Assembly: GCA_021018995.1 (NCBI GenBank)
Contig: CM037590.1
Span: forward strand, 64,017,597 to 64,081,596
DNA from: Chloranthus sessilifolius
Lineage: Eukaryota > Streptophyta > Magnoliopsida > Chloranthales > Chloranthaceae
Direction: 5' to 3'
DNA length: 64,000 bases
This document shows positions 1,362-63,968 of the stretch, in pieces (the stretch's first letter is position 1; the number at the start of each line of letters is the position of its first letter). The translations under genes and the position numbers were made by a program. The notes beneath the pieces were generated by a model. The model was not told where the DNA came from. It worked only from the letters and a program-made list of their open reading frames with translations, and did no database searches.

Positions 1362-1530
1362 CTGACGCAACTAATACATGCGCCAAGGTTGTAGGGGACA
1401 AATTTTACACTGGCGCAACTATTAGTTACGCCAAGGTAAAATATGGGAGTTTAAAGCTGGCGCAACTATTAGTTGCGCCAGTTATAAATTCCAGTGTTTT
1501 TACACTGGCGCAACTAATACATGCGCCAGG
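1362..1530. repeat. Cluster of four ~25-bp palindromes in the Ogre leader
   Basis: Four copies of a near-perfect palindrome with arms CTGGCGCAACTA / TAGTTGCGCCAG lie at about 1362, 1409, 1457 and 1505. The copy at 1457-1481 is perfect apart from its single central base. The others differ by a few bases that mostly spoil one arm. The same word recurs three times in the LTR of this element, at 3485-3657. Confidence 0.85.
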
Positions 1531-2038
1531 CAAAAACTACCTCTCGAGCAGCGCTGCCATCGATGCGAAATGAGTCTCTTTTTTGGTTTTTTGTGGAAGC
1601 TAGGCCTCGAATCGAAAGCTTTTCTTAATGATCGATTCTCTCCTCACCGACGCCTAAAGGATTGAGTCCGGTATAACTCGCTAGCGCACTCCCCAAGGGT
1701 TTTAAGCTTTGTAGGAATGGGAACCCACCTGATATACCTCCGGCGCAAGCACCTTCTCAGATACTAGGTGGGCTGGGACTTTTCTGGATCATCACCACTA
1801 GGGGCTGCCGCCATACTAAGACCCGAGTGTTTGTATGTGTGCCTAAACCAACCCTTTTGAAAAATCTACCCCACAAAACAGATTAATTAAGCTCCCTAAC
1901 TTGGTTCAATTTTAATTTTTCAAAACCTTTCTCTTTTTTTTTGGAAGTTTTCAATAGTTCAAAGACCGGGGGTGATTATCCCGTGCCGCCACTACGGGCC
2001 GAAGTCCACTGTTAGGATATGATAAATAAAAAATGGGG

Positions 2039-2290
2039 CCAGTCAAGCGACTAGGCGGGAAATATAAAGTGCTGAAATTTAAAAAGTGCCAGTCAAGTGA
2101 CTAGGCAAAAAGTTGCTAAAATTTAAAAAGTGTCAGTCAAGCGACTAGGCAAAAAGTTGCTGAAATATTAAAGCGAAAACGTAGGGGTGAGTAAAAAAAG
2201 GTGCCAGTCAAGTGACTAGGCAAAGATTGTAGAAATTTAAAGCGGAATCGTAGGGGTGAGTAAAAAAAGGTGTCAGTCAAGTGACTAGGC
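2039..2290. repeat. Five irregularly spaced repeats around CAGTCAAGYGACTAGG
   Basis: Copies begin at about 2039, 2089, 2133, 2204 and 2273, with spacing of 44-71 bp, each followed by similar AAA-rich sequence. The core AGTCA-AR-TGACT is itself a short inverted repeat. This is a second palindromic word inside the same Ogre leader, unrelated in sequence to the CTGGCGCAACTA word. Confidence 0.8.
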
Positions 2291-2451
2291 AAAGATTGCA
2301 GAAATTTAAAGCGGAATCATAGGGGTGAGTAAAATGACGTAATCGGAGGGGTGAGTGACAAAAAAATAGCAAAAATAATAAAAAAACAGCAATAAAATGT
2401 TAGAAAAATAAAAAAGAAAAAGGCCTAGTTCAAGGGGAAGCTCTACTAGCT

Positions 2452-2471
2452 ACTCCCCAGCAGAGTCGCCG
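2452..2471 (-). promoter_or_regulatory. Retrotransposon primer-binding site (Ogre type)
   Basis: On the minus strand this reads GGCGACTCTGCTGGGGAG, close to the primer site characteristic of plant Ogre/Tat elements, which use a tRNA-Arg primer. It lies two bases inside the end of the LTR, fixing the orientation of the element as leftward. Confidence 0.8.
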
Positions 2472-3194
2472 TCTGTGCAACCGTGGGATCCGTGACGGTC
2501 CCGTCGCGACGATGCGCTCTCTAACGAAAAATATAGAGTCGCCACCCGGAGCTTTCGGTGTCCCGGGATACCTAGTTCATTTTTATGAGCACCGAAGTGC
2601 TAAAAATATGACTCTGAATCCGATCCACACCAAAGGCTCTTAGGTAGGGGCTTTGGTTATCGATTGGGAAGGTGTTAGGCACCCGATCAACCCGCTTAAC
2701 GCGGTCTCTACTAATGGCCAAAATAAAATAGAATAAAAGAAAAGGAAATGTTTCTCTCTTGCCCAAATGGGCCTCCAAAGCTATTTGTGCCCCTCCGTTC
2801 CTACCGAAAATTCGGTGGCGTAACGGCACAAATGAGAGGATGGAAGGAGCTAGAAAGAGATAGGAGAAGAAAGGAGAGAGCCGGAGCCCTCGGGCCCTGT
2901 AGCACCGTAGAGGAGCCTTGCTTGGCTTGCTTTTGATGAGCTCTTGAAGGCTTGAATGGTAGAGAAATGGGTTCTAACCACTAAGGCTTGAAGCTAAGGG
3001 AAGGCGAAGGGAGGCTAGGGGATCACACACACCTAGGCTATGGGTTTTTGATGTAAGAACAAGCTTAGAAGGGGTTTTAGAATTCTGGAATTTTAGGTGA
3101 AAATAGTGCACCAAAGGGAGGAAGAACTTCTCACTTTTAAGCTCTTTCTCTCTTAAGCAAACTTCTCAACCCTTAAACCAAGGGGAGGGGGGCT

Positions 3195-3203
3195 CTATTT
3201 ATA
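3195..3203 (-). promoter_or_regulatory. TATA box of the Ogre LTR
   Basis: The minus strand reads CCTATAAATAGAGCCCCCC, a textbook plant TATA context followed by a C-rich start region, as expected for an LTR promoter. Confidence 0.7.
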
Positions 3204-3484
3204 GGAAAAGGGTGGATTAGGAGATCACTTAGATGCTAATTGGAGTTAGCAATTAGGTAATCTTAAATCTAAGGTTTCCTAGGATTTTGAGAGGTTGGAA
3301 AGGTGTGAAGGTGGTTCTAATGGTGGATGATGGGGTGAGGCCTTAAGCCACTTAAGGGGTTGCCAATAGATAAGGAATGGGTGCAACAGGACTATCAAAA
3401 CACACCCCAAAGGTCGAGGTGGTCAACAAGTCAAACCCCAATCATAAATTTCGGGGCAAAACTGAATAGTTACTGTTCATATGT

Positions 3485-3657
3485 CTGGCGCAACTAATAG
3501 TTGCTCCAGGCAAATGTACAGTAAAACAGTGTTGCACAGTTCCCTGGAAGTTAGCCTCGCGAGGGGTTGGGGGACCCATTTATGCCTGGCGCAACTATTA
3601 GTTGCATCAGGCCATTTCTGGGGGAAAATTACCTGGCACGACTATTAGTTGCGCCAG
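3485..3657. repeat. Three palindromes in U3 of the Ogre LTR
   Basis: Copies at about 3485, 3585 and 3632 of the arms CTGGCGCAACTA / TAGTTGCGCCAG, each with one to three changes. They lie 280-450 bp upstream of the LTR TATA box. The word is identical in type to that at 1362-1530, so one element carries it in both U3 and the untranslated leader. Confidence 0.85.
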
Positions 3658-4062
3658 GCAAATCCCGAAATTTTGTCCGATTTTCGAATGGCCATAACTT
3701 TTAATGTACAACTCCGATTGGGGTGATTCTTGGCTCGTTGGAAAGCTGGAGAAGTCCTCTTTCCCATAGTATATGATTTGATATCAGTAAAAGACCTCAG
3801 ATAGTCCTGGTGCACCACTCTTCATCCATTGCCTGGAAAGGTTACGTTTAGGGTTCGGGATGGGTTCTAAGGGTTCGGATTGGTTTCTAAAGGTTTGGGA
3901 TAGGTTCCTAAGGGATATAGGGTGATTCCTAAGGGTTTGGAGTGATCCCTAAGGGTTCCATTCATACTATCAAAAGCTCAGAATTGTACCTCTCTTAAAA
4001 GGTGTTTCGATCGGGCCTTTGGCCAAATTTGGGTGTCTATAATACCTATCATCAGGGTTTAA

Positions 4063-44013: not shown

Positions 44014-44211
44014 CAACGTATCAAAAATCGGTCGATACCGATACGTATCGGTATCCTAACTCAGGTATCCGATACCGTATCGGCCAATAGGTGCTCAGAC
44101 GTCGTGATTCGCCAATAAATAAAAATAGGCCGATATGTCTCGGTATCGGCCAATATATATCGGTCGAGTCGTATTTGTCTTGGGCAAACTGATACCGATT
44201 TTGATACCTAG
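44014..44211. mobile_element. hAT-type TATCGG MITE, 198 bp
   Basis: A perfect 8-bp duplication GTAGAAAG (44006-44013, 44212-44219). Ends CAACGTATCAAAAATCGG and, inverted, CTAGGTATCAAAATCGG. The inside is almost wholly made of GATACC, GGTATC, CCGATA and TATCGG words. Confidence 0.85.
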
Positions 44212-55931: not shown

Positions 55932-56195
55932 TGTAACAACCCTGAAATCTAGAACACAAACCTGACTGTTTCGATCTACGTGCCCGGCACGGAAATCGAG
56001 ACCGATTTAAATTTTAAGAATTAATATTAGTTAAGATAAGGTTGCACCATGGTCGGATGAGTTCGCATGTGCATTTTCGTTTAAGTCTGAGCTGTGTAAA
56101 GGGTCAATGTAGTACGTTGCGTCGTAGCGACCGTACTCGTGCTCCACACCGGAACCTAAACTAAGAGGAAAACAGAAATATCTGTTTTCTTAGCT

Positions 56196-56200
56196 TATAA
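56196..56200 (+). promoter_or_regulatory. TATA box of the chromovirus LTR
   Basis: GCTTATAAGAG, with a CT-rich start region about 35 bp further on. The palindrome array starts 481-485 bp downstream. Confidence 0.6.
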
Positions 56201-56680
56201 GAGAAGGAAGGGAGACCTAGAGGGAGTTCTTCTTCTTCTTCTCCCTCTTCCCCTTGCTTTAGAATCTGAGAAGTTTGTAGCTAGGGTTGGTCTGTGAGAG
56301 AGTCCCTTGAGAAAATAGGGTTAAGGCAGAGGTACCACATTGTTCGAGATAGAGGATGGAGAGATGAACTAGGACACTCCACACTAGTTTAAGAGTGTGT
56401 ACGGTCTTGAAGATTGAAGGGGAGAACTGGGCATCGACTTATCCGAGCCGTAGCGACGATAAATTCCGAAAGCAAGATCCGAAACCCTCATTCGAGTCGA
56501 TTTGCCGAAACCCCGTGAGGGCCCTAACAAAGGTGAGTTTATGTGTTTAAATAGGGGCAAATGAGATGCCCAAGTATGGGCATTGACGTCAGGTTGATGG
56601 TTGTTGAGAACCATTAAGGAGAAAAGGGTTAAAATAGGGTTGGAGATGAACTCCATTAATGACAGATTTTCTGTCATTAT

Positions 56681-57268
56681 TGATCGATCAACACAAGTGG
56701 TGATCGATCAATAACAGTGGTGATCGATCAATGAAGACCATTGATCGATCAATCTGTATAGGACAGAATGGGAGAACAGTGGACCCAAAATGTGAGAAGT
56801 TCAATGCCCGAAGGGCATTGATCGATCAATGAGGGCATTGATCGATCAATGAGAGCATTGATCGATCAATAATAGTGGTGATCGATCAATGACATTTGGT
56901 GATCGATCAACATAGGTATTGATCGATCACTGTAGGGTGTTGATCGATCAATGAGGGCGTTGATCGATCAATGAGGGCATTGATCGATCAATGAGAGCAT
57001 TGATCGATCAACAGGGAGCATTGATCGATCAACAAAGGTGGTGATCGATCAATTTAAACAGTAATAGAAGAGTGTAGAAGAGAGGTTATTGATCGATCAA
57101 TGAGTGTATTGATCGATCAATGATGATAGGTGATCGATCAATAAGGTGTATTGATCGATCAACTGATTTGTTGTAGAAAGAGAACTGAAAGGGTGGTGAT
57201 CGATCAATGAGAAGTATTGATCGATCAACCAGGAGTATTGATCGATCAACAGGAGTGGTGATCGATCA
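56681..57268. repeat. Array of 24 TGATCGATCA palindromes
   Basis: Twenty-four exact copies of the 10-bp palindrome, mostly inside TTGATCGATCAA. Starts: 56681, 56701, 56721, 56742, 56819, 56839, 56859, 56879, 56900, 56920, 56941, 56961, 56981, 57001, 57022, 57042, 57090, 57110, 57131, 57152, 57197, 57218, 57239, 57259. All but three to four intervals are 20 or 21 bp. Spacers vary but reuse a few forms (ATGAGGGCAT, ACAGGGAGCA, ACAAAGGTGG). The palindromes are conserved exactly while the spacers are not. Confidence 0.95.
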
Positions 57269-58527
57269 ATCACCCCTGTTTTGGTTCTGTTTTGGTTTTG
57301 TGAATTAAACACCATCGGACATTGTGCCGGTTAGCTTTCTGACATCCCTAACATTTAAAGTACTATGTTGATGGTCTAGGAATCAAACCCTGACACCTTG
57401 AAAAGGCTTTGGATTTGCTTAGAAGATAAATTGACCTGAGGTAGGAGAAAATCAACTTAAACCGTTTTTGAGTATGATTCCATGTTTACCTCATATCTAT
57501 GCCCTGATTTCTGTTTTTACCAAACATGTATGCATATCATGATTCCTGTTATTTTGATTTCTGTCTCCTGATTCGCATTCTGAAAACTTGCTTCTGATTC
57601 TGTTATCTGATCTGTGAGGTATATAAGTATGTGATTTGATTATTTAAACCAGATGATCCCCACCGACCCGGCGGTATATCCGATGCCTGGCACACTTGTG
57701 CACCTGCTTGTAATCCTCGGCGCAATTGCACTCCATAGATGAGGCATTGTTGCACTTTCAAAATTGTTCATGTGAACGATGATTGGTTGGGGTTTCCTAT
57801 CGGACATTCCTGTTTACTCCGTGCTATATAGTCACGGGAGTTTCTTAAGTTAAACATATACAATTTAAGCTCTCTGATAATATACTTGCATAACATCTGA
57901 TTTCTTGTTTAAAAGCTCAGTGTTTGATTTGATTCGTCATGATTGTACATTTCTAATTTGATTTCTGTTATGAGATAGCATGATCTGCATATTCAATTCA
58001 TTTAGTTGAAATTCTTCTATTGAGCTATGATGTAGCTCACCCTGTATTCTAAATTAAACTATCATCCGAGGCCGAAGACGAGGAGACAGACGTTCAGGCG
58101 GACGAGTTCTATCCGTAGCCTGGGTACTAGTGTCTGTTATACTGTATTTTGGTTCTTTTGGATTATTGTGTGCCTGGTGGCCACTTTTGTGTACATTTTA
58201 GTAGGATTATTTACTGTATTATTTACGCATTCTATTCGGAACCACCATCGGGAACCATTGTTTGGGTGATGGATGTCCATCACCAATGGTTCTTCTTGGT
58301 TCCTTTTTGAGAATGCATTTTCTTTGAAAATATAGAAATTATTGTTTTATAATTATTGTTCTTTATGATTAAATATGTTGATAAATGACTGACTCGATCT
58401 ACCACTGCTGGGTGGCGTCTGCTTGGCTTCCGCTTTACAAGCAAACACTGATGATTTGTCCCGGGGATCATCCAGAGTATGATCCTAATGGCACGGATTT
58501 CTGGGTGTAGAAATCCGGTTATTCTGA

Positions 58528-58545
58528 TTGTATCGAGCCTAGACG
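58528..58545 (+). promoter_or_regulatory. Primer-binding site of the chromovirus, worn
   Basis: TTGTATCGAGCC differs from the usual tRNA-iMet site TGGTATCAGAGCC by one change and one missing base. It lies where the LTR should end. Confidence 0.55.
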
Positions 58546-58630: not shown

Positions 58631-59882
58631 ATGGGCCCTAAGTTCAGAGGAGGGCACGGCAGAGGTAGAACAGGTCAGAGAGAGATTCCTCTGAGGGATG
58701 TGCCCGAGGTCACGCCGAGGGGCTTGGAGTTCCTCTCACATGCAAATGCGGTTCCATTGGGACCCGGAGGAGGTAGAAGGAGAAGTGAAGAGAGGATGGA
58801 GTGTGTGTTAAAGCATTAGCTACCAACGCGCCGCCAGACAACCGCTTAGCTCAACAGTGACTAGACCACCCCATCAGCCTGGTGGATTTGCGGAGTTTAG
58901 GAGAATGAGACCTCCTAACTTCTCAGGTCAAACGGATCCCGTTGAAGCAGAAGGGTGGATAGAAGAGATGGAGAAGCTCTTTGAAGTATTACAGTGTAGT
59001 GACGTGGAGAAAGTGCGTTGGGCCACTTTCAAACTGGATGGTGACGCCGGACCTTGGTGGAAGTCGGTGTCACAAAGTAGACAGAGAGAATTTCCTCACA
59101 CTCCTTGGACGTGGGAGGAGTTTACGGAAGTGTTTTATCATAAATACTTCCCGAAAATTGTGAGGCATCAATGGGAAGTGAAATTCATAGAGTTGAAGCA
59201 AGGCGCCATGTCAGTAAGGGACTATGGAGCGGAGTTTGATAGGTTGGCTAGATTTGCACCTCAACATGTAGCCACGGAGTTGATGAGAGCAAGGAAATTC
59301 CAACTTGGCCTGAGACAAAATTTGCAAAAAGACGTCGCCATGTGGGAAATGGAGACTTATGAGGGAGTCATGGCCAAGGCTCTTATAGAGGAGGAGAACC
59401 GTAAACAATTCTCTTGGAGGGACAAGGTGCAAGAGAGAGGCCATTCAAGGGCAATCTCGTGGATACAGAGTGTAACAAGAGGGCTAGATTTTCCAGACCT
59501 CCGAGACACCCTACGCACTCTCGACCGGTGATTTCTTCAGGACCGAGTTCATATCAGAGAGCAGCAGCGCCTACATCTTCAAGATCATTTCGACCAGCTG
59601 GATCATCTGGTAGCAGGGCCTCAGTAACTCAGGGACCTTTAAGAGTCTCGTCCTTCACTCCATGAGCATGCGCAAAGTGTGGAAACCACACAAGAGAGGA
59701 CGAGGAGAGAGACAGGGCATGCTTTAGGTGTGGCAAGATGGGTCACTTGGTTAGGAATTGCCCCGAGGAGAGCAAAGAGGTGGGATCGGTATCTACCCAA
59801 AGATCAGTTCGACCAGTGGTTCACGGCCGAGCTTATGCCGTCACCGCCACCGATGCTCTGACATCAAACGACGTCATTCAAG
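58631..59882 (+). pseudogene. Chromovirus gag, frameshifted
   Basis: The N-terminus (58631-58819) reads MGPKFRGGHGRGRTG in one frame and closes. The capsid core follows in another frame (58857 on): RMRPPNFSGQTDPVEAEGW, then PWWKSV, FYHKYFP and LKQGAMSV, the retrotransposon-gag family pattern. Near 59450 the frame shifts again to an S/R/P-rich linker. After a TGA at 59663 comes one zinc knuckle CFRCGKMGHLVRNC (about 59720). Two shifts and one stop mean no full Gag is made. The order and motifs match Tekay/Del gag. Confidence 0.8.
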
Positions 59883-60033
59883 GTATGATTAGAATTCAAG
59901 AGATATGGTGTTGTTTAATATGATGAATTGGAAAGATTGAAAATATAAAATTTAGTTGATTGATTTTGATTATAATAATACACATAAACCTACATATCTA
60001 AAACGTTGAAGTAATGTTGAAATTGGTGTATAG
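59883..60033 (+). other. Candidate 151-bp intron between gag and protease
   Basis: CAAG|GTATGATT at the left, GTGTATAG|GTGAGC at the right; AT-rich with stops in all frames. Its length (151, remainder 1 after division by 3) exactly explains the change from the zinc-knuckle frame to the protease frame. Against it, the first codons past the donor (GMIRI) look like the normal continuation of the family, so this could be an insertion rather than a spliced intron. Confidence 0.4.
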
Positions 60034-63000
60034 GTGAGCTGAAATTGTATAGGAGTTGCAATATTTGCTTCCATAGAGCACGAGCCCTGATAGACCCAGG
60101 CTCCACGCATTCTTTCGTACGGCCTCAATTTACGAAGGAATTGAGTGCCACTCCAGAACAACTAGATTTTATCCTGACAAGAAATCAATTCCTACACGGT
60201 AGTGCAAAGGAATGCACTCACCGTGTGTAAATCAGTGGTAGTGGCAGTAGATGATCATGAGACGCGGGCAGACCTGATTCTGTTAGATATGAAAGGATTT
60301 GATATCATTTTGGGAATGGACTGGCTATCTGCTTACCACGCGAGTGTGGATTGTCTTCGGAAGATGGTAGTTTTCCGCCCTCCAAAGGAGCGATCCTTTA
60401 GATTCTTCGGAGTGAAGTCTAAGGTACCTCCGTTGATATCCGCTATTCGGGCGGAGAGGATGATGAAGAGTGGATGCAGTGGATATATAGCCTTCCTACA
60501 AGAACAACGGGAGAAGACAAATGTGATATCCGATGTTCACGTTGCATGCGAGTATTCCGATGTATTCCCTGAGGAATTGCCAGGACTACCGCCAGTTCGG
60601 GAGATTGAATTTGTAATCAATTTGGTTCCAGGCACTGAACCAGTATCTAAAGCTCCGTATCGGATGGCTCCAACAGAATTGCAAGAGTTGAAAGAGCAAC
60701 TACAAGAACTTCTTGACAAAGGGTTTATTCGACCGAGTGTGTCCCCTTGGGGAGCACCAGTATTGTTTGTTAGAAAGAAGGATGGTTCGATGCGTCTATG
60801 CATTGACTATCGGCAATTGAATAAGTTGACGATTAAGAATCGTTACCCGCTTCCTAGGATCGATGATCTGTTTGATCAATTGCAAGGAGCGAGGTTCTTT
60901 ACGAAGATAGACTTGAGATCGGGTTACCATCAATTACGAGTCAAGGCCGAAGATGTGGAGAAGACGGCGTTTAGAACCAGGTATGGACACTATGAATTCT
61001 TAGTTATGCCATTTGGATTGACGAATGCACCCGCATCATTTATGGACCTGATGAATCGTGTATTTAAACCACACTTGGACAAGTCAGTGGTTGTTTTTGT
61101 GGACGACATCCTTGTCTATTCTAAGATGAAGAAGGAACATGAAGAGCATCTACGTGTAGTCTTGCAGACCCTCAGAGAACATAAATTATACGCAAAGCTC
61201 AGTAAGTGTGAATTTTGGTTGAACCAGGTGAGTTTCCTGGGTCATATTGTCTCCACCAAGGGTATCACCGTAGACCCGACAAAGATTGAAGCTGTCGTGA
61301 AATGGGAACAACCTAAGACAGTGACAGAGGTCCGTAGTTTCCTAGGTTTGGCAGGATACTACAGGCGATTCGTAGAGGGTTTCTCTAAGCTATCAAGTCC
61401 GCTTACTCAGCTCACTAAGAAAAATGCTAAATTTGATTGGACTGAACAATGCGAGAAAAGTTTTCAGGAATTGAAGACACGTCTGACTACAGCACCAGTG
61501 CTAACTATACCCTCTGGGAGAGGAGGATTGGCTATCTACAGTGATGCATCGTATAGTGGTTTGGGTTGTGTTCTCAACCAACATAAGAAGGTTATCGCAT
61601 ATGGCTTTAGACAACTTAAGGAACATGAGAAAAACTACCCGACTCACGATCTGGAATTGGCAGCGGTGATATTTGCTTTGAAGATTTGGAGGCACTACTT
61701 ATACGGCGAAACGTTCGATATCTACACCGACCACAAAAGCCTTAAATATTTGTTTACCCAAAAGGATTTGAATATGAGACAACGCAGATGGATGGAGTTC
61801 CTGAAAGACTACGATTGTTCCATCCAGTATCACCCTGGGAAGGCCAATGTGGTGGCAGATGCTTTGAGCAGAAAGTCTCCAGCTCAGTTGGCACATCTTA
61901 TCACCCGAGTACAAAGGTGGCACCTACTTGAGGACCTGGCCTTATGTGATACGCTGATTGATGTTAGAGGTTCAGGGACACTAATGGCTACCATCGTGAT
62001 ACGCCCCACATTGTTTGACAATGTACGTAAGCTCCAGATGATTGACGGCGAGCTTATGGCGATTAGAAGGGATGTGATCAACGGGATCAGACCTGATTTT
62101 ACCATCAAGGATGATGGCACATTGCTATTTCGAGATCGAATATGCATACCAGATACAAAGGACCTAAAAGACACAATTTTGGAGGAAGCGCATAAGTCTA
62201 CATATGCTATACATCCGGGAAGTACCAAGATGTACCAAGATCTCAAGCAAAGTTTTTGGTGGAGATGATTAAAGAAGGATGTGGCGGATTATGTTTCTAG
62301 GTGTTTGGTCTGCCAGCAGGTGAAAGTGGACCATCAGAATCCAGCGGGTTTGTTGCAACCATTACCAGTGCCAGAGTGGAAATGGGAGGCCATTTCTATG
62401 GACTTTATATTAGGATTGCCGAGCACATTGAGAAAGAATAATGCCATTTGGGTTATTGTAGACAGACTGACGAAATCTGCACATTTTCTACCGTATCGGA
62501 CTACATTTACAGCAAATAAACTAGCCGAGCTATACATGAAGGAAATAGTTCGATTACATGGCATACCGGTCAGCATCGTGTGTGATAGAGATCCGCTATA
62601 TACATCGCAATTTTGGCGACGATTCCAGGAAGGCATGGGTACTAAATTGGAATTCAGCTCAGCATTTCATCCTCAGACAGATGGGCAGACCGAGAGAGTG
62701 AACCAAATCATAGAGGATATGTTGCGTGCGTGTATGTTGGACTTTCATGGTTTATGGGATCAACACTTACCTCTGATCGAATTCGCTTACAATAACAGTT
62801 ATCAGTCAAGTATTGGGATGGCGCCTTATGAAGCTTTATATGGACGTCGATGCAGATCTCCACTGAATTGGGAAGAAGTCGGCGAAAAGCTTGTCTTAGG
62901 ACCAGAGATCGTGGACAGTACCACTGAGACGGTTAGAGTGATTCGCGAAAGATTGAGGATGGCCCAAAGCCGTCAAAAGAGCTATGCGGATCTTCATCGG

Positions 63001-63545
63001 ACGCAAGTGGAGTTTCAGGTATAACCAAATACGTCAGACGATACGTATGCCCATGGTTAAAATTAAATCAATAGAGAATTAACACTTGTTTTCAGGTGGG
63101 AGACAAGGTGTTTGTGAAGATTTCGCCAACCAAGGGCGTCATGCGATTTGGAAAGCGCGGAAAGTTGAGTCCTCGATATATTGGACCATTTGAGGTACTC
63201 GAAAGGGTTGGAGAAGTCGCTTATCGGATTGCCTTGCCACCACAGTTGGCAAGCATGCACAACGTCTTTCACGTGTCCATGCTACGCCATTACGTACACG
63301 ATCCGACTCACGTCTTGGATTACCAACCAATAGAGCTTCTAAAGGATATGACGGTGATAGAAGAACCGATTGCTATTTTAGATCGTCGTGATCAAGTTCT
63401 GCGGACTAAGTTGATTCCACTGGTACTAGTCAAGTGGAGAAATCATTCGGACACTGAAGCTACTTGGGAACGCGCAACCGAAATCATAACGACCTACATT
63501 TGTTTGCCCAATGAGAAAGGTAAATTCTTAATCATTTTCGCTTAA
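60034..63545 (+). pseudogene. Chromovirus pol: protease, RT, RNase H, integrase, chromodomain
   Basis: Protease ALIDPGSTHSF (about 60086) is followed by a frameshift near 60200. From 60202 the frame is open to 62265: RT with FARTKIDL-type [14 protein letters not shown], catalytic FVDDILVYS (about 61090), RNase [21 protein letters not shown] and VADALSRK. Integrase begins with a zinc finger ([15 protein letters not shown]); its core residues are in MDFILGLP, CDRDPLYTS and DGQTERVNQ. A TGA at 62266, probably from CGA, breaks it just before the zinc finger ends. After a 77-bp intron the last exon (63096-63545) has the GPFEVLERVG region and a chromodomain-like EEPIAILDRRD...WRNH...ATWE. One stop and one shift in 3.5 kb make this the least decayed element here. 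Confidence 0.85.
63019..63095 (+). other. Intron within integrase, 77 bp
   Basis: TTTCAG|GTATAACC ... CTTGTTTTCAG|GTGGGAG. Removing it joins FQ to VGDKVF, which is continuous in other Tekay/Del integrases, and restores the frame (77 leaves remainder 2, matching the frame change). A branch-like ATTAAC lies 18 bp before the acceptor, then a T-rich tract. Confidence 0.8.
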
Positions 63546-63710: not shown

Positions 63711-63968
63711 TGATCGATCAATTTCATCAGTGATCGATCAACAGAGATTGGTGATCGATCAAGGACAGCGAAGGATTTCACTCAAAAGAAAGGCTGGTGA
63801 TCGATCAATAGCAGTATTGATCGATCAATAGAGGTTCAAGTGATCGATCAACATAGGTCAGTGATCGATCAATTTTGCATTGGAAGGAAAGCAGTGATCG
63901 ATCAACATTAGTAGTGATCGATCAATAAGGGCATCAGTGATCGATCAACAGAGGGTGGTGATCGATCA
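63711..63968. repeat. Second array: 11 TGATCGATCA palindromes
   Basis: Starts: 63711, 63731, 63752, 63798, 63818, 63841, 63862, 63895, 63915, 63938, 63959; most intervals are 20-23 bp. It begins 166 bp past the pol stop, in DNA that does not match the flanks of the first array or the start of the 5' LTR. So it is either 3' untranslated sequence or another intron. The window ends before the 3' LTR. Confidence 0.95.

Follow-up and report, generated by a model that had tools for sequence, protein, structure and literature searches.

This locus raises the question of what keeps a 10-bp palindrome with a central CpG, TGATCGATCA, unchanged through dozens of copies in a plant LTR retrotransposon. 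The window, meaning here the whole stretch of 64,000 nucleotides that was analysed, corresponds to C7:64017597-64081596 in a genome of 2.17 Gb and 32 contigs. A preliminary description had reported 24 identical palindromes in a chromovirus LTR, with no base change and at intervals of 20 or 21 bp interrupted by a few gaps. Our recount agrees on both points: 24 exact words and no one-mismatch word lie at 56681-57268 (array 1), where 20 of the 23 spacings are 20 or 21 bp and the remaining gaps measure 77, 48 and 45 bp. A second array, which was not part of that description, contains 11 exact and no one-mismatch words at 63711-63968 (array 2), and continues for three more words beyond the right edge of the window (in L019). 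All 35 exact words of the window fall within one or the other array, against a chance expectation of 0.07 per window obtained by dinucleotide shuffles. When other clusters of palindromes were sought in the window (arms of 6-8 bp, AT-repeats excluded), just two were found besides array 1, each with three copies and variable gaps, at 44033-44130. At the left end of the window (2038-2292 and 1412-3660) there is another repeat, with five copies of the inverted word CAGTCAAG[CT]GACTAGGC and several palindromes resembling GGCGCAACTA...TAGTTGCGCC.

The element carrying the arrays

The features of the element are as follows.

55932..58518, plus strand: 5' LTR, delimited by blastn of LTR pieces against other copies, with the LTR ends and PBS aligned.
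56195..56201, plus strand: TATA-like box TTATAAG, exact in 10 of 14 aligned copies.
56533..56538, plus strand: 5' splice-site-like sequence AAG/GTGAGT, its GT donor retained in 14 of 14 aligned copies.
56681..57268, no strand assigned: array 1, 24 exact TGATCGATCA words, in the 5' LTR.
58857..59531, plus strand: gag, Pfam Retrotrans_gag PF03732 / Ty3_capsid PF19259.
59883..60033, plus strand: pol intron 1, probable GT-AG intron, its ends and position common to the divergent relative L070.
60202..62268, plus strand: pol part 1, with Pfam matches to protease, reverse transcriptase, RNase H and the integrase zinc-binding domain.
62281..63024, plus strand: pol part 2, integrase core, PF00665 at 22.6 bits, under the curated cut-off of 32.6.
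63019..63095, plus strand: pol intron 2, probable GT-AG intron (GTATAA...TTTTCAG) at the boundary of integrase core and SH3 in the window.
63096..63545, plus strand: pol part 3, integrase C-terminal SH3 and chromodomain, PF00385 at 26.4 bits with a cut-off of 25.1.
63711..63968, no strand assigned: array 2, 11 exact TGATCGATCA words, between pol and the 3' additional ORF.

Judged by its domains, the element is a Ty3/gypsy chromovirus, because the Pfam order is gag, protease, RT, RNase H, integrase, SH3 and chromodomain (matches to RVP_2, RVT_1, RT_RNaseH, Integrase_H2C2, rve below its cut-off, SH3_Tf2-1 and Chromo). Array 1 is located in the LTR since the stretches flanking it on both sides also recur in other copies. 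The LTR of the window begins with TGTAACAACCC at 55932, homology to other copies ends at 58518, and the 3' LTR begins at L019:1890, outside the window. In sister copies the LTR ends are TGTAACA...TGTTACA, followed by the PBS GTTGGTATCAGAGCC, which we take to fit initiator tRNA-Met; from the LTR ends and the type of chromodomain, the clade is presumably Tekay/Del.

Matching 5-bp target duplications were found for L034/L035, L036/L037 and L021/L023. The flanks of the window's copy differ (CAAAT and GTAAC), with no matching duplication, and those of L026/L027 also mismatch. At the LTR/PBS junction the sequence is scrambled over about 25 bp in the window (58505-58540) and, independently, in L022, L035, L038 and L050, which may reflect assembly error or biology, other copies having a clean TGTTACA-GTTGGTATCAGAGCC junction. 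L021, L022 and L023 (C13:28465000-28491000) contain three LTRs about 10 kb apart, whose outermost ends are bordered by the 5-bp duplication ATTCT; this arrangement is probably LTR-internal-LTR-internal-LTR, produced by unequal recombination.

The TATA-like box and the splice-donor-like site were compared in 14 copies chosen out of the 41 described below. The box, which is not exact in L034, L031, L049 and L039, sits about 480 bp upstream of array 1, and transcription probably starts some 30 bp downstream of TTATAAG. Another TATA-like site near 57620 was rejected, since it is not conserved. The donor-like site precedes the first word by 148 bp and reads GTATGT in the divergent L039. Because of this conserved site and of the introns in pol, we suggest that array 1 probably lies within a leader intron, for which no acceptor or transcript was identified. 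As for the pol introns, the insert of intron 1 in L070 has the same position and a different sequence, and the acceptor pattern of intron 2 gave no match in the relative L069. A further donor-like site is present at 63520.

Array 2 and the 3' LTR enclose an additional ORF of about 500 aa just past the window edge (in L019). It is broken in the window's own copy; its start was located in ten fetched copies, and in four of these (L025, L027, L030 and L034) the ORF is open. The dN/dS values are 0.16-0.32, at dS 0.12-0.31, in all six pairs among the four open copies, and 0.28-0.43 in nine further pairs involving L033 or L037, both of them broken; the ORF is thus a gene of the element under purifying selection. 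It weakly resembles PF20167 (E 0.0014, 19 bits, cut-off 45), with no DNA-binding domain found in Pfam and no credible relative in PDB (best E 0.35). No homolog was found among 7995 scored candidates of the protein collection, a search that had no positive control and says little. A genome search with the ORF gave 51,803 first-look candidates, 86 of which were scored, and because of this number the family is probably very large. Array 2 lies upstream of the ORF in 10 of 10 copies that were picked by the ORF and not by the words. A related element represented by L055, L069 and L070 (72-81% identical to the window in LTR pieces, 83-87% in pol) contains the LTR array, no array 2, and a mere 38-residue trace of the ORF; for this reason, the ORF is not needed in cis.

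Constraint on the word and on its outer bases

The arrays were compared in 41 loci, namely the window and L019-L058, which were fetched where two neighbouring exact words occur or from the window's own 3' neighbourhood and therefore carry a mild bias. Both kinds of array taken together contain 1025 exact and 44 one-mismatch words, 16 of the latter being C>T or G>A changes in the central CpG, and the LTR arrays contain 18-26 exact words per copy. The preliminary description had proposed that selection or homogenisation targets the word itself instead of a longer satellite unit, and had suggested comparing rates of change in words and spacers over aligned LTR copies. In this comparison (300 of 809 between-copy pairs) the divergence of the spacers tracks that of the flanks, the two rising together from 4% to about 18%, whereas the words stay at about 1% (0.8, 1.5, 1.0 and 1.1% in the four bins where flanks diverge by less than 20%), so that palindromes change less than spacers throughout this range. 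Neither of the outcomes that the preliminary description would have taken as a refutation, joint evolution of the whole 20-bp unit or palindromes mutating as fast as spacers, was observed, and selection acts on the word.

At 20-40% flank divergence the word figure rises to 4-8%. The 110 pairs with at least 20% flank divergence provided 4525 ungapped words, whose partner was exact in 4109 cases, had one change in 182 and two changes in 27, and was unrelated in 207; the higher figure is explained by these 207 words facing unrelated sequence, which are lost or misaligned words, and by the 182 one-change words. For the 190 pairs below 20%, with 8207 ungapped words, the corresponding numbers are 7951, 210, 5 and 41.

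The 41 LTR arrays contain 33 one-change words, and just one of these changes recurs at an identical position in a second copy (L031 and L040). In the flanks, by contrast, variants shared by at least 2 of 39 copies occupy 834 of 1834 columns. Changes private to one copy (39 of the 41 copies, L039 and L055 having been dropped) amount in the words to 0.22% at non-CpG and 0.55% at CpG positions, and in the flanks to 0.56-0.73% and 0.6-1.2%, respectively, the flank figure including a patch of 109 changes in L025. The private rate in words is about one third of that in flanks, or nearer one half for the downstream flank when the L025 patch is removed. From the counts of private and shared changes it follows that words do mutate in single copies, yet hardly any change is inherited by several. 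The earlier proposal had left the choice between selection and homogenisation of the word; the single shared change among 33 speaks for selection, and homogenisation is unlikely as the sole cause because spacers within the same arrays diverge freely.

Ten older copies, in which the additional ORF is 84-86% identical to P0001 and carries in-frame stops in 9 of 10, were fetched regardless of words. Their arrays before the ORF contain 121 exact and 24 one-change words (words with more changes were left uncounted), and 16 of the 24 changes are CpG transitions. These sequences indicate that words decay in older copies, mostly at CpG, and that arrays are not fully protected at each locus. Since words erode in broken copies, clean arrays reflect selection within those lineages that keep multiplying.

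Both LTRs of a single insertion are expected to differ by ageing alone. In ten pairs of neighbouring LTRs, two of which come from the triple L021-L023 and two of which (L034/L035 and L036/L037) have verified target duplications, words differ by 0.2% and flanks by 4.2% at non-CpG positions, and by 1.4% and 11.7%, respectively, at CpG positions. Both this gap and the low private rate in words appear to exceed what selection before insertion alone should produce, and they count against the protein-binding explanation favoured below; some protection of the words after insertion may be involved. The differences within LTR pairs are strongly patchy, also in both verified pairs, and for this reason we read them, short of proof, as gene conversion from other copies or as assembly patches in a high-copy repeat.

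The constraint does not stop at the word. On each arm the word is followed outward by A or C and then by T or C, a rule obeyed in 1000 of 1024 cases on the left, 979 of 1024 on the right and 961 of 1024 on both sides. Substitutions at the first base are mainly between A and C (662 of 760 on the left, 181 of 270 on the right), and those at the second mainly between C and T (679 of 720 and 843 of 1012, respectively; 260 of 820 pairs in each case). On this evidence the full site can be written as RKTGATCGATCAMY, 14 bp long with symmetric degenerate outer bases.

Among the short LTR spacings (16-23 bp), 660 of 700 measure 20 or 21 bp. Length differences between copies affect 711 of 3525 comparable spacings and amount to one base in 609 of them. 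It had been claimed that all sites face the same side of the helix; two helical turns do fit within runs, but across gaps the phase is lost (37 distinct long LTR spacings in 41 loci, periods 10.2-21 bp, Rayleigh p 0.32-0.71), and one continuous face over the whole array was rejected beyond single runs for that reason.

A pattern of three words was matched 25,122 times in the genome, overlapping matches included, and not once by the reversed-word control. Five of the places with other spacers (L071-L075), selected because three exact words occur there, come from more divergent LTR families, for which the matches listed cover the window LTR in pieces only; they contain 73 exact words, with A or C adjoining on 145 of 146 sides and a looser rule for the second base. 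One of them, L071 (C1:15247600-15251100), consists of two LTR-like arrays head to head and inverted, 92% identical over 1.6 kb. A DNA transposon with terminal inverted arrays (C1:15248295-15250381) was considered for this locus and dropped. Because L071 matches the window LTR in pieces (among the matches listed, 79-81% in segments of 159-177 bp that lie 140-290 bp downstream of the window array), we interpret the locus as two LTRs of a divergent related family placed head to head. Scans of the collections with the word gave four viral and six prokaryotic stretches, and triple-word matches were observed in the prokaryotic contigs L005-L010, with three close together in the haloarchaeon Halonotius roseus (L006).

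Candidate functions of the arrays

The symmetric constraint on the degenerate bases that flank the word makes a dimeric DNA-binding protein, whose binding the preliminary description had thought possible, the best reading. We consider it somewhat probable that both arrays are reiterated platforms for one homodimeric, sequence-specific DNA-binding protein and act as cis-regulatory modules of the element. Such a protein, which could be a host factor or the product of the additional ORF, would read TGATCGATCA plus the degenerate outer bases (RKTGATCGATCAMY), and neighbouring sites, two helical turns apart within each run, would be bound side by side. Array 1, in the transcribed LTR leader and probably in a leader intron, would then serve the genomic transcript, and array 2, before the additional ORF, would serve the expression of that ORF; the effect could be activation or protection from silencing.

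In a special form of this explanation, the product of the additional ORF would itself bind the word arrays and remove silent chromatin marks, in the manner of the anti-silencing protein VANC21. An arrayed short motif in non-coding parts and introns, together with an extra protein encoded by the element, is what has been described for VANDAL21 in the accessible text (PMC5735166). The constant position of array 2 before an ORF under purifying selection (10 of 10 copies) and the CpG at the word centre, which decays by transition in older copies, are also in agreement with this idea. On the other hand, the element represented by L055, L069 and L070 retains the LTR array with its 38-residue ORF trace, and the ORF product has given neither a DNA-binding domain nor any match better than those to PF20167 (E 0.0014) and PDB (E 0.35). 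We regard this form as a tentative possibility, and one that is probably not correct.

A function at the RNA level, in which the words pair in the transcript and so create a strong duplex that serves packaging, dimerisation, nuclear export or the production of small RNAs, seems rather unlikely to us. It counts against the protein platform that an RNA function would likewise demand an invariant self-complementary word: if every word can pair with every other, a change in any one of them is penalised too. As RNA, the array folds to -269 kcal/mol, compared with a mean of -150 and a lowest value of -248 in 40 word scrambles, and the outer stem extension pairs slightly above shuffles (p 0.03 and 0.0002). 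RNA hairpins, which had been listed among the possible structures, thus find some support in the strength of the fold, but the inner stem extension does not covary (paired 0.42 versus 0.47 in shuffles at position 1, 0.71 versus 0.72 at position 2). Moreover, the A/C rule beside the word permits mismatches in such stems, which would not predict a degenerate rule, and pairing has no obvious need for a spacing of 20 or 21 bp or for one common word in very divergent families.

It is highly improbable that the arrays are a functionless tandem repeat of satellite type, made uniform by slippage and gene conversion. The 20-bp unit is indeed tandem, its number varies (18-26 exact words per LTR array), and the patchy LTR differences suggest conversion. 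Conversion would homogenise the spacers as well, yet their divergence keeps pace with that of the remaining LTR, and the same word turns up next to other spacers in divergent families, and once more in another part of this element. A homogenised satellite whose whole unit evolves together was rejected, since spacers track flanks and words do not.

Related systems and the meaning of the arrays

The closest layout to that found here is known from Sireviruses, which belong to Ty1/copia. According to the accessible part of the source (PMC2829016), they carry palindromic repeated motifs (RM) in the LTR and more of them in the linker before an env-like gene, and four RM elements that have no env-like gene also have no copies in the linker. 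The same text describes for Tnd-1 an ATCGAT-centred palindrome in eight copies at 100% identity, and calls the motifs of unknown function and specific to Sireviruses among the Ty1/copia elements compared (PMC2829016). The likeness consists in conserved, high-copy LTR palindromes that recur ahead of a 3' extra gene (PMC2829016), and in the absence of the second array where the extra gene is absent, which here concerns one element (L055/L069/L070). In contrast, the Sirevirus boxes have, in the accessible text, a CGG-CCG core except in Tnd-1, number at most 32 units per element and lie upstream of the TATA box (PMC2829016), whereas here the word is TGATCGATCA, the spacing is 20 or 21 bp and the LTR array lies downstream of the TATA-like box. 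The element here is no Ty1/copia Sirevirus, its domain order and chromodomain being those of Ty3/gypsy. On the sequence evidence, then, the arrays are a Ty3 chromovirus counterpart of the Sirevirus motif layout.

The preliminary description had stated that no function was described for this motif. Among the matches listed for the word TGATCGATCA there is indeed no title about such arrays, the matches being probably primers; very similar palindromic arrays have nevertheless been described in Sireviruses, as far as the accessible text goes (PMC2829016). Among the matches listed for palindromic or tandem arrays in plant LTRs, titles and abstract starts contained no Ty3 case, subscription papers being outside the scope of this search.

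The arrays of the Drosophila gypsy Su(Hw) insulator offer a comparison within Ty3/gypsy, as they too are reiterated protein sites in the non-coding leader of such an element. The Su(Hw) site is different, degenerate and non-palindromic, and it is bound by an animal zinc-finger protein.

VANDAL21 is a DNA transposon of Arabidopsis whose arrayed motifs are bound by the element-encoded anti-silencing protein VANC21, according to the accessible text (PMC5735166). A short motif dense in non-coding parts and introns, and a gene for an extra protein in the element, are common to VANDAL21 (PMC5735166) and to the present case, and growth by tandem repetition is a further shared trait in the accessible parts of the sources (PMC5735166, PMC10398659); dense tandem motif arrays in non-coding regions, as in VANC/VANDAL, are present here. 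The VANC21 motif YAGTATTAY is no palindrome in that text and belongs to a DNA transposon (PMC5735166).

Extra ORFs are found in other plant Ty3/gypsy elements, among them Retand, Tekay and Athila (accessible parts of PMC11963269, PMC11728184 and PMC7264820). Retand has an extra ORF with tandem repeats between pol and the 3' LTR in the text available (PMC11963269); in sunflower, as far as the source could be consulted, Athila has a PF20167-like extra ORF and the extra ORFs of Tekay lie 5' (PMC11728184). The repeats of these elements are described as family-specific, and no shared palindromic LTR word is named in the accessible parts of these sources (PMC11963269, PMC11728184, PMC7264820).

Because the Sirevirus layout, in which one array lies in the LTR and another goes with a 3' extra gene, is matched in a different superfamily, the comparison suggests that chromovirus and Sirevirus may have converged on the control of both transcription units. 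With 25,122 overlapping triple-word matches in one genome and a 14-bp bait, a protein that reads the site could be fished directly. More speculatively, and with considerable doubt on our part, a large clade of chromovirus LTRs in this genome might depend on one dimeric factor, possibly the product of its own additional ORF, which would read the RKTGATCGATCAMY arrays in the leader intron and before the ORF and so allow escape from silencing; this would be a VANC-like system that evolved independently and serves ORF-less deletion derivatives in trans. The arrays touch in this way on the questions of how a very abundant plant retrotransposon escapes silencing and of what additional ORFs do.
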